Below, one piece after another: positions 6,294 through 10,493 of a stretch of 37,068 bases of DNA. Under the pieces are notes generated by a model. The model was not told the origin of the DNA. It was given only the letters and a program-made list of their open reading frames with translations, and searched no databases. The translations under genes and the position numbers were made by a program. Source of the stretch: Oligoflexia bacterium (GTDB taxonomy: Bacteria > Bdellovibrionota > Bdellovibrionia > JABDDW01). The first letter of the stretch is position 1, and every line of letters begins with the position of its first letter. Where the stretch lies: NCBI GenBank assembly GCA_034439615.1, contig JAWXAT010000006.1, positions 1 through 37,068 on the forward strand. Reading direction: 5' to 3'.

Positions 6294-7343
6294 TTAAACG
6301 ACGTTTTTTGCCATTAATTTCAAACTAGTTTTCTTAAGATAAGCAATCATCAGTAGTGGAAGTGTTAAGAGTACAAGAGGAGGAGCGCCTGGGCCACCCT
6401 TTCCACTGTCTTTTGCATTAACTATTCCACAGCCCATCCCTTTTTCTGATGTTTTCTTTTGTGCAACACAAGCATGCTGTTCACAACCACTAGCAGGACA
6501 TTCGGTAGTAACACCTGCAGAAAGATCATCAGTAGAATTATAAAGAGCAATATTCCATTTCATCGTTGTCGCCTCTGGATTTAAAGCGCAATAAGCGAGC
6601 ATCAATTTTGAAAAAATACGATCAGTACACTCAGACTTTGCCTTACTTAATGCTGATACCTTGCCAATGTTATGTTTCACATGATCCACACTGATATCTG
6701 CAGAACTGTATGCTGGCAAATTGCCATCAAAAATAACACAGGATCCATATTGAACTGGTGGTGGCAACGTTGGCGTTGGCTCTGAAGCAGGTGCCCGCTC
6801 TGAAACTGACAGTACCGGCGTTGCGGCCGGTGTTGGCGCAGTTGTGGTCACAGGTGTTGGAGTTGCAACAGGTAGTGGCGCTGGTAATGATAATGGTGGC
6901 CTTGGACATGTATGAGAAACACATCCAGTTATTGCACATCCTGATATAGCATTGACAGGTTCGCCTGCAGAATAATATGCAGCAACTCCCCATTGTGCAG
7001 AAGTAATTTTTGGATTTGCTGTACAGTACACATCCATCAATTCTAGGAAAACACTATCGGTGCACGCAGTCTGAGCACTTCCAAATGTTGTCACATTCCC
7101 AATATTACGTTTCACATAAACTGAACCTTCATTTGCAGCAGCATAAGCAGGAAGACTTGTACTTTCACTGCGAATAACACAAGCACCATATTGCACACTT
7201 GGCACTGGCGTTGGTGTTGCGATCGGAGTTGGTGTTGGTGTTGAGCCAGACTTGGCTAGGTATTGTTTAATAATTACATCCTTAAACACACACACTCGAA
7301 AAACTATTTGGAGGAAGCGTGTTGGCTTGACCATAAATATCAC
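6294..7343 (-). CDS. C-terminal part of split cysteine-repeat surface protein, with membrane sorting tail
   Basis: This frame carries two copies of a roughly 95-residue cysteine-rich repeat (DNA 6906-7196 and 6468-6755), Thr/Pro linkers, and a C-terminal tail. The tail has GMGCGIVN, a GKGGPGAPP spacer, a hydrophobic stretch (LVLLTLPLLMIAYL) and basic residues (KK). That layout matches the Cys-containing C-terminal sorting signals of surface proteins such as MYXO-CTERM types. There is no signal peptide at the front. The only starts, GTG at 7343 or ATG at 7334, have no ribosome site. It continues the upstream gene with a one-base frame change at the GT tract 7286-7295. I regard it as the distal part of one gene, not an independent one. 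Confidence 0.7.
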   Translation of the reverse strand: MIFMVKPTRFLQIVFRVCVFKDVIIKQYLAKSGSTPTPTPIATPTPVPSVQYGACVIRSESTSLPAYAAANEGSVYVKRNIGNVTTFGSAQTACTDSVFLELMDVYCTANPKITSAQWGVAAYYSAGEPVNAISGCAITGCVSHTCPRPPLSLPAPLPVATPTPVTTTAPTPAATPVLSVSERAPASEPTPTLPPPVQYGSCVIFDGNLPAYSSADISVDHVKHNIGKVSALSKAKSECTDRIFSKLMLAYCALNPEATTMKWNIALYNSTDDLSAGVTTECPASGCEQHACVAQKKTSEKGMGCGIVNAKDSGKGGPGAPPLVLLTLPLLMIAYLKKTSLKLMAKNVV

Positions 7344-7773
7344 AAATATTTACGAGACAAGATTCCTGTGTTGTGTAGAGACCCTTTGTAATATTACTTC
7401 CATCAACCATATCAAGCCTGCAAATGTCATATGGATTTGGCGTTGGTGTAGCTGATGGTGCAATTGACGGTGTGGGAGTTGGTGTCGATGCAGGACATTT
7501 ATGATAGTCACACCCACTCGCTGCGCATCCGGTAACTTGATATGAGCCAACTGAATCATAAGCGGCTACACCCCATTGTACATTCTCCGCATTGGGGATC
7601 AGTGTACAAAAATTAACCATTAATTCCGCAAAAAATTTATCCGTACATGCTAACTGCGCTTGAGCATATGTTGTTACATTACCAATGTTACGTTTCACAT
7701 AGTTAGTTCCTACATCGGCAGCATAGTATCCGGGGAGATTTCCATTACGAATTATACACGACCCAAACTGTAT
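6468..7773 (-). repeat. Three copies of a ~95-residue Cys-rich domain across the split gene
   Basis: Copies lie at 7495-7773, 6906-7196 and 6468-6755 on the minus strand. The shared pattern is Q-Y/F-G-x-C, then LP-A/G-Y, VK-R/H-NIG-x-V, an A-x-x-x-CTD segment, an LM-x-x-Y/F-C segment, A-x-Y, GC-x-x-x-GC and H-x-C. Six to seven cysteines are conserved in position, suggesting disulphides outside the cytoplasm. The first copy is in the upstream frame and the other two are in the downstream frame. I do not recognise the domain. Confidence 0.75.
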
Positions 7774-10455
7774 CCCAGTCGCTGGGCTTGGTGTCGGTGT
7801 CGGATTGGGCGAGACAGGCGTAACTGTTAGTACTTGTGTATAAACACCAACTAAACCACTGCAAGTTACTGCGGCCACTTTGTAATAATATAATGTACCA
7901 CTGGTTACAGTTGTATCATCAAATTTATACATATTTGAAACTATGGAAGATGGTCCACCAATTGATAACCACGGGCCACTTGAATTTGTTGCACGCATAG
8001 TTACATAGTCGCATGCATCGGTCACAAGATTCCATTGTGCTGAAACTTTGTAATTTCCAGCAGTAAGTTGAAAACCAGTAGGAGCGGGCAACGATACTGG
8101 TGGGCCTACTGGCACGACGGATAAATTTTCAGGTGAATAAAGACCCTCGTTGCCATTACCGTCTATAGCGGCAACACGATAAAAATAAAGTGTCCCATTA
8201 ACAACAGTTAAATCTGCGAGTACAAATGTGTTTGAATTTAAAGATGTAGTTGGGCCATTCACTGTACTCCACGGACCTGAGGTACTTAACGCACGCTTGA
8301 TGCTATAACTACTTGCACCAGTAACTCGGCTCCACTGCACTCCGACTTGCTTATTCCCCGCTGTTAACTGAACCGTAGGCGCTGCAAGTTGCACTACCGT
8401 TCCCATTGGTGGTGTTGCACTTAAAATATTTGTATATACTCCAGGTTGGCTATTTGCATTTAGCGCTGCAGCTCGGTAGTAATAAGTCACACCGTTAAGA
8501 GCCGTTAGGTCTACTAAAACAAATCCTGAAGATGTTGTAGTCGTTGACCCATTCACTTCAGCAAAAGTTCCATTGGCAGACGGACTTCTTTGTACGGAGT
8601 AACCTGTAGCACCTGGTACGGCCTGCCATTGTATCAGTACTTCATTATTAGCTGTACCAAGTAGAAACATCGTCGGCGCTGGTAATTGTCCAACATTACC
8701 TTGATTGACGATCACGCCAATAGCTGCAGTATCAGAACTTTCATCGCCATATCCGTTTAACGCAGAAACTGCATAATAATAAGTAGTCCCAGCTACTAGC
8801 CCTGAATCAGTATATTGATTTAATGTAATCGTGGAAACAGTGTTCGGATAAGCCACTGCAATTTTAGTCAGTGCATTTGGAGCTGTACCCCTTTTTATGT
8901 GATACGCAAATGCTCCGTTATTATTTCCCCAAGACAAATTAACTTGGTGATTGCTCGTTGTTACATTATATGGCCACGGCGTTGTTGGAACTGAAACAAG
9001 TCGAGGTGTTGCAGTTGGCACTGGAGTTGATTGAGCTGATGGCGTGCACCCTATTTTATAAACATTTGATTTTCTGTATTTCACACCAGCAACTGATGAG
9101 GCTTCTTCATATGTTTCATAGGCATGACGAAAAAGATTCCCAGATTTATCGATAGTTAATTTCCCATGATCGCCTGAAGGATTTGCTAAGTTTGCATGCG
9201 CGACAGAACCGTTGAGCACTGTATTATTGAAAAATCGAAGTTGATTTGTGGCACAGTAACCTTGATTACAAATGCCTTCTTGCGATACCCAACTAATGCC
9301 TCCATCTGTGCTTCGTAATAGTTTACTAGCTGTATAGTTTCCACCTGTTGGATGAATGACAACATATAAATTGCCAAGATGATCTGCGCCTGTATTTAAA
9401 ATTCCATAAGAGCCCGTAAGAAGATTCTCGTACAATGGCAACATCGACCATTGGGTACCGTCAGAAGTCCCGCGAAGCAACGCTGGGTATTGCCCCCCAG
9501 TAGCTGGCTGTATATCAACAAACAACAAGATCTGATTTCTACTATTGAAATCATCATAGAATCCTGTCCTATAGCCGATAACTCCTGAACCTAATAACTG
9601 GGTCAATTGATTTAAATTTTCACCGACCGGAGTAGATTGAACTGTGTTCAATCTACGCGCATGATAAGCCCTTACATTTGAACCGTACGTACTAACTGTA
9701 CCAAATGTAAAAATATTACCTTTGCGATCTTTCAAATAATCCCAGGGGTAGAAACTTGAATTTACAGAATAAACAGTATCGTCCACAACAGTCCACCCAC
9801 CAGAGATGGTGTTGCGTTTTATTACTGAAACAGCATTACTAAAATTACCTGTGCCTGATCGTATGACTCCAAAAATATCGCCAACTTGATTTTCAAAAAA
9901 TTTCAATCTGAGAATAGAGTAATTATAATTTAATGAGGAAGTGGTTCGCATGGGATTAAATTTAAATTCAGGACCCTTGTACCATGAAGCTTGGTTGCTG
10001 ATGTAAATCACATTATTCATCACTCCGTTAGCAACCCCACCCGCATAGATATTTCCCAATCTATCAGATTCAGCTGAATCATTTGAGAATGACCAGGCAT
10101 AATTTTTTAATATATGGTTTTTAGAATCACGCATAAATATTGCGTTTGAATTAGCTACAAAAGAACCACCGTTTAATACAGATAAATTACCCTTACCAAC
10201 TACTACTGGTTGATCTGCTGAGCCAAAACTAAAAAAACCACGAGACTCTTCTTCGGTCGTATAAGCCGAAGAATTGTGATCTGAAAATGTAAACTCATCC
10301 GACAATGTCCAATCACCAGAATATGATGTCGTGCATATTTGAGGGTTGATGCTCGTATAATTAAAATTTTGGTATCCAACAAAAATAACAGAAAGAATTA
10401 GAAATACAGAAAATTTCTTGAGCCTATTTTTATATAGGTTTTTGCCCGTAAACAT
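7282..10455 (-). CDS. Large secreted fibronectin-III / Asp-box protein, N-terminal part of split gene
   Basis: The ATG at 10455 follows a GTGGAGGG ribosome site. Residues 1-35 are a basic then hydrophobic secretion signal. Residues about 40-480 look like a beta-propeller, with an Asp-box RSTDGGISW near 380-388 and related SDGTQW and DRKGNIF segments. Four fibronectin-III domains follow, starting at about 492, 590, 689 and 788; the last three open with L-P/A-APT, and all carry YYY/YFY-type strands. One Cys-rich repeat occupies about 894-987, then a Thr/Pro linker and a four-cysteine segment that ends at a TAA just after a (GT)5 tract. Reading on with one extra GT unit enters the downstream frame smoothly. 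The likely role is a surface-anchored adhesin or carbohydrate-binding protein; that is inference from domain layout. Confidence 0.8.
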   Translation of the reverse strand: MFTGKNLYKNRLKKFSVFLILSVIFVGYQNFNYTSINPQICTTSYSGDWTLSDEFTFSDHNSSAYTTEEESRGFFSFGSADQPVVVGKGNLSVLNGGSFVANSNAIFMRDSKNHILKNYAWSFSNDSAESDRLGNIYAGGVANGVMNNVIYISNQASWYKGPEFKFNPMRTTSSLNYNYSILRLKFFENQVGDIFGVIRSGTGNFSNAVSVIKRNTISGGWTVVDDTVYSVNSSFYPWDYLKDRKGNIFTFGTVSTYGSNVRAYHARRLNTVQSTPVGENLNQLTQLLGSGVIGYRTGFYDDFNSRNQILLFVDIQPATGGQYPALLRGTSDGTQWSMLPLYENLLTGSYGILNTGADHLGNLYVVIHPTGGNYTASKLLRSTDGGISWVSQEGICNQGYCATNQLRFFNNTVLNGSVAHANLANPSGDHGKLTIDKSGNLFRHAYETYEEASSVAGVKYRKSNVYKIGCTPSAQSTPVPTATPRLVSVPTTPWPYNVTTSNHQVNLSWGNNNGAFAYHIKRGTAPNALTKIAVAYPNTVSTITLNQYTDSGLVAGTTYYYAVSALNGYGDESSDTAAIGVIVNQGNVGQLPAPTMFLLGTANNEVLIQWQAVPGATGYSVQRSPSANGTFAEVNGSTTTTSSGFVLVDLTALNGVTYYYRAAALNANSQPGVYTNILSATPPMGTVVQLAAPTVQLTAGNKQVGVQWSRVTGASSYSIKRALSTSGPWSTVNGPTTSLNSNTFVLADLTVVNGTLYFYRVAAIDGNGNEGLYSPENLSVVPVGPPVSLPAPTGFQLTAGNYKVSAQWNLVTDACDYVTMRATNSSGPWLSIGGPSSIVSNMYKFDDTTVTSGTLYYYKVAAVTCSGLVGVYTQVLTVTPVSPNPTPTPSPATGIQFGSCIIRNGNLPGYYAADVGTNYVKRNIGNVTTYAQAQLACTDKFFAELMVNFCTLIPNAENVQWGVAAYDSVGSYQVTGCAASGCDYHKCPASTPTPTPSIAPSATPTPNPYDICRLDMVDGSNITKGLYTTQESCLVNICDIYGQANTLPPNSFSSVCV

Positions 10456-10493
10456 TGAAGCCCTCCACACGTTCCGCTCTTAAATTACCTATT

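Follow-up and report, generated by a model that had tools for sequence, protein, structure and literature searches.

A large exported-protein gene interrupted at a short GT tract in an Oligoflexia bacterium, probably by a recent frame change

Two reverse-strand open reading frames (ORFs) that overlap beside a GT dinucleotide tract raise two questions: whether they are the parts of one interrupted gene and, if so, what interrupted it. The window, the whole stretch of 37,068 nucleotides analysed here, is one entire contig of a 3.0-Mb draft genome in 70 contigs (estimated completeness 96%), whose PNPase shares 77% identity with those of the Oligoflexia metagenome-assembled genomes SJ240 and nzgw168, so that its source is an uncultured relative within this group.

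The upstream fragment (7282–10455, reverse strand) begins with an ATG at 10455–10453, is preceded by a Shine–Dalgarno-like GGAGGG (10462–10467, reverse strand) located 6 nt 5′ of this codon, and ends with a TAA at 7284–7282. Its predicted product is composed, from the N to the C terminus, of a hydrophobic segment, a β-rich region of approximately 470 aa, FnIII domains, Cys repeat 1 and part of a small 4-Cys domain, in which the TAA falls. A preliminary description of the locus had assigned a signal peptide, an Asp-box propeller and four FnIII domains to this part. The N-terminal segment is indeed hydrophobic but has no obvious cleavage site, and three FnIII stretches are supported by Pfam, with the fourth not clear. 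The propeller, by comparison, did not hold up: the N-terminal region contains one good Asp-box (STDGGISW) and a propeller-repeat match below threshold, shows no relative in the PDB, and yielded a single-sequence structure model with a pLDDT of 34. The N-termini of the family to which the protein belongs carry the sequence YQNF or FQNF (window, 10320–10455; L033, 769–900; L034, 4116–4260; L031, 539–3913), whereas a lipobox-like YQNC stands at this place in several exported proteins that are neighbours or similar; the family leader resembles a lipoprotein leader in which Cys is replaced by Phe.

The downstream fragment (6294–7349, reverse strand) lies in the next frame, which is open from 7349 to 6297 and closes with a stop codon at 6296–6294. 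It encodes the remainder of the 4-Cys domain, the first half to most of which is left upstream of the break, followed by Thr-Pro linkers, Cys repeats 2 and 3, the tail and the stop. Cys repeat 1 with its linker is positioned at about 7450–7827 in the upstream fragment, and Cys repeat 2 with its linker (6852–7238) and Cys repeat 3 (6447–6830) in the downstream fragment, all on the reverse strand. Each repeat is about 95 residues long, and their mutual identity of 41–55% bears out the earlier count of one such repeat before the break and two behind it. The C-terminal tail (6330–6443, reverse strand) consists of a GCG motif (GCGIV), a Gly-rich stretch (including GKGGPG), a hydrophobic segment and Lys-Lys. 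Start codons of the downstream frame were checked for Shine–Dalgarno elements and none has a ribosome site, in agreement with the preliminary description, whose coordinates (6294–10455), tract (7286–7295) and account of the frame relation were also correct.

Comparison with related genes answers the first question. Two relatives, a paralogue of 1128 aa from the same genome (G000:C15) and a homologue of 1048 aa from a different genus of the family (G002:C61), are each encoded by one uninterrupted ORF, and both present the same order of an N-terminal hydrophobic segment with YQNF or FQNF, FnIII, a Cys repeat and the same type of tail. Because these homologues are continuous, Cys repeats occur on both sides of the break and there is no second start, the assignment of the two halves to one gene, already proposed in the preliminary description, is well supported by these comparisons, and the two ORFs should be annotated together as one interrupted gene. 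Homologues that end at this point and are followed by a second gene with its own signal peptide were looked for and are absent. The gene in the window is solitary, standing between a gene for an unassigned exported protein and one for a PLP-dependent (threonine-dehydratase-like) enzyme, whereas the paralogue and the G002 homologue are located in similar gene clusters, which indicates that it is a further paralogue. The shared cluster (L033, 769–7001; L034, 1309–11244) contains several large exported or lipoprotein-like genes and is absent around the window's gene.

The frame change is contained in a stretch of 65 bases (7285–7349, reverse strand) and, as both frames are open throughout it, the exact shift site is not set by sequence alone. 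The change required is +1 (equivalent to −2), which one extra GT unit supplies; the earlier proposal that adding such a unit joins the frames thus fits the offset, while the position is bounded only to 7285–7349, where a T5 run (7299–7303, reverse strand) is a second candidate, since a one-base event in this run would yield identical frames. The (GT)5 tract (7286–7295, reverse strand; (AC)5 on the forward strand), with the TAA directly 3′ of it, is the sole dinucleotide run of at least 4 units within the gene. A codon-usage model placed the best switch position at 7283–7311, a range over which the GT tract and the T5 run are not told apart. In 0.8 Mb of the genome, dinucleotide runs of 5 units number 7, and 0.05% of 65-base stretches contain a dinucleotide run of at least 5 units. 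As a tract of this kind would rarely occur here by chance (0.0005), far more rarely than a T5 run, sits at the break and matches the offset with a single unit, it is the likely slip site, and slippage within it likely caused the frame change, although this is inferred rather than proved. A search of 144 genomes of the class recovered no homologue of the 4-Cys domain that spans the junction, and neither did one at a relaxed threshold; precisely there, the joined frame thus has no relative with which to compare it. No close relative carrying the junction was found in the family, sampled at one genome per genus, and a contig search with the upstream protein was also empty.

The downstream half extends over 331 codons with no stop after the break. 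Under neutral drift, a stop is estimated to arise in half of such segments by about 2% substitution divergence and in 95% by about 9%; the open state of the downstream half implies that the break is recent or that the frame is occasionally still read. The dN/dS among the three Cys repeats is about 0.2–0.4, with synonymous sites near saturation. This shows protein-level evolution of the downstream part and carries no information on the time since the break. We favour, at a probability of roughly 0.55, a single gene whose product is large, exported and anchored by its tail, and whose frame was recently interrupted by a small and genuine change; slippage by one GT unit (2 bp) is the likeliest event, and we infer that the population really carries this allele.

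Slippage by one GT unit (2 bp) would shift the frame of the surface-protein gene, and ribosomes on the present allele would halt directly past the tract. The predicted product, about 1057 aa long and tail-less, would retain the N-terminal part together with the FnIII domains and a single Cys repeat, and would be deprived of two Cys repeats and of the hydrophobic and basic tail. Such a product would probably be either unanchored or lost. Its release, if it is exported and stable, is a fair guess by analogy, because TraA of Myxococcus is released outside the cell when its MYXO-CTERM tail is missing (PMC11980579). Should the mutation be fixed, the locus would represent an ordinary broken or shortened surface-protein gene. 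The preliminary description had named a mutation, an indel error, a switch by slippage and a programmed shift without ranking them; on the evidence assembled here a real, recent slippage mutation ranks first and a sequencing or assembly error lower, the positive evidence for a switch is confined to the tract, and programmed frameshifting, for which support was lacking, ranks very low.

An error of sequencing, assembly or consensus in this draft, metagenome-type genome, with the true gene intact, is not favoured and appears unlikely. The break is a single indel in a draft of 70 contigs, and the homologues are intact, both of which such an error would explain. Against it, the 143 proteins (41.6 kaa) that aligned between 0.8 Mb of this genome and 0.9 Mb of G002 showed no frame break, in a screen that recovered 59 of 73 planted single-base deletions, and we therefore judge the assembly not to be indel-prone. 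The remaining four (GT)5 tracts of the genome are all read in frame within intact ORFs, which we take, from a look at their sequences, to include genes for a DnaJ/helix-turn-helix-like protein, a metalloprotease, an EGF-like surface protein and an LpxH-like hydrolase. The gene contains no exact repeat of at least 15 nt that could cause a wrong join, and misassembly via internal repeats was rejected on this ground. Contigs C65 (L035, 1–45) and C68 (L036, 1–100) begin in Thr-Pro repeat DNA of other surface proteins, which suggests that the assembly breaks at such linkers and that similar genes may be cut at contig ends; this difficulty of the assembler with Thr-Pro-repeat genes lends the artefact some support. 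The ends of these two contigs were also considered as carriers of an alternative allele and were rejected, as they hold only Thr-Pro linker DNA of other proteins.

It is rather improbable that the gene is a contingency locus, in which reversible variation of the GT unit number within the population would make the protein alternate between an anchored, full-length form and a released one that is shorter and has no tail. Its layout is of the kind expected, with a dinucleotide tract inside surface-protein coding sequence that sets the frame by an offset of one unit, a stop directly behind it and a downstream half that remains wholly open. A comparable layout is found in mmyCImod of Mycoplasma mycoides, a phase-variable type III methyltransferase gene in which an AG repeat is followed immediately by TAA, and of which sister clones with 10 and 12 AG units differ in activity (PMC3498834). 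The window's gene shares with mmyCImod the dinucleotide tract within the coding sequence, the off-frame stop directly behind it and a remainder that is open in another frame; unlike this methyltransferase gene with 10 and 12 units, it encodes a surface protein, has 5 units and is represented by one allele known from sequence alone. It also resembles oipA of Helicobacter pylori, in which a CT tract in the signal-peptide region varies among isolates (PMC10564699), in being a surface-protein gene in which a dinucleotide tract sets the frame, but its tract is located about three quarters into the gene and is represented by one allele in one genome. The freeing of TraA in Myxococcus once its C-terminal sorting tail is removed (PMC11980579) would likewise accord with a switch between anchored and released forms.

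The tract itself argues against such switching. Its 5 units compare with 10 to 12 in the Mycoplasma example, and the genome shows no excess of (GT)5, with five occurrences in 3.0 Mb versus four of the reversed control pattern; the other four are in intact genes, one of which encodes a large EGF-like surface protein. The homologues, being without the 4-Cys domain, do not share the tract, and a single allele was seen, in the one genome of the genus. That an Oligoflexia-type bacterium uses a slippage switch to exchange an anchored for a released form via the C-terminal tail, instead of turning expression on and off, is accordingly a proposal to which we give low odds. A literature search of limited extent turned up no description of repeat-based phase variation in this bacterial group. 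If the switching were true, it would extend such variation to this group and to the choice between an anchored and a released protein.

Recoding at the tract, by a programmed ribosomal frameshift (+1 or −2) or by slippage of transcription, would yield both a short and a long product and is very improbable. After a step of two bases backwards the tract codons GTG TGT would again pair perfectly, the stop follows at once and the downstream frame is kept open, but −2 shifts are rare, the 100 nt downstream do not form a stimulatory structure (fold z = +0.67), and no Shine–Dalgarno-like element is positioned near the tract as in prfB. None of the homologues, which are continuous and do not contain the 4-Cys domain, has an equivalent arrangement, and neither a stimulatory element nor a conserved shift site was found. 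Least probable of all are two separate genes, the second translated independently or through reinitiation, for although the frames overlap and downstream-frame GTG codons occur at 7295 and 7289, close to the stop, the candidate starts are all without a ribosome site, the second part has no export signal at its beginning, and both parts reside within a single ORF in the homologues.

On the favoured reading, of a recent break in one gene, the part lost includes the tail, which the preliminary description had termed a Cys-type C-terminal sorting tail. The GCG motif, the hydrophobic segment and Lys-Lys are present, whereas the tail matches none of the NCBIfam models, and a role in sorting is suggested by analogy. 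Like the MYXO-CTERM proteins, which include TraA and are sorted by a myxosortase (PMC11980579), it has a C-terminal Cys motif, a hydrophobic segment and a basic end; unlike them, it is not recognized by the corresponding model (TIGR03901), and its own genome (96% complete) has no match to the CPBP-family protease (PF02517), which is present in 11 of 14 controls. An assignment to MYXO-CTERM was rejected for these reasons. With GlyGly-CTERM proteins and their rhombosortase (PMC3237569) it shares a Gly-rich stretch before the hydrophobic segment and a basic end, but it carries an invariant Cys and does not match TIGR03501, and all rhombosortase (TIGR03902) matches in its genome are below cut-off, so that this assignment was rejected as well. 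The tail of the G002 homologue scores 14.4 of the 15.5 bits needed for GlyGly-CTERM (TIGR03501) and 8.5 of 20 for MYXO-CTERM (TIGR03901), both below cut-off.

Among related genomes, counting entries in which the motif is plainly visible, tail-like segments occur in 23 of 40, often within ORFs of 630–650 aa. Across the class, the combination of GCGxV, a Gly-rich stretch and a hydrophobic segment is seen in ORFs of approximately 630–650 aa, about one per genome, and the loci with a GCGxV segment are L041 (G061:C1), L232, L236, L237, L239, L243, L246, L248 and L249. The designation as a sorting tail is an analogy, because the models and sortases are unmatched and similar segments occur elsewhere, one of them not at the end of its protein. 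This protein, encoded at L041 (G061:C1), is a subtilisin-like protease in which the hydrophobic segment is followed not by the protein end but by a domain of approximately 100 residues with a PilZ-like appearance.
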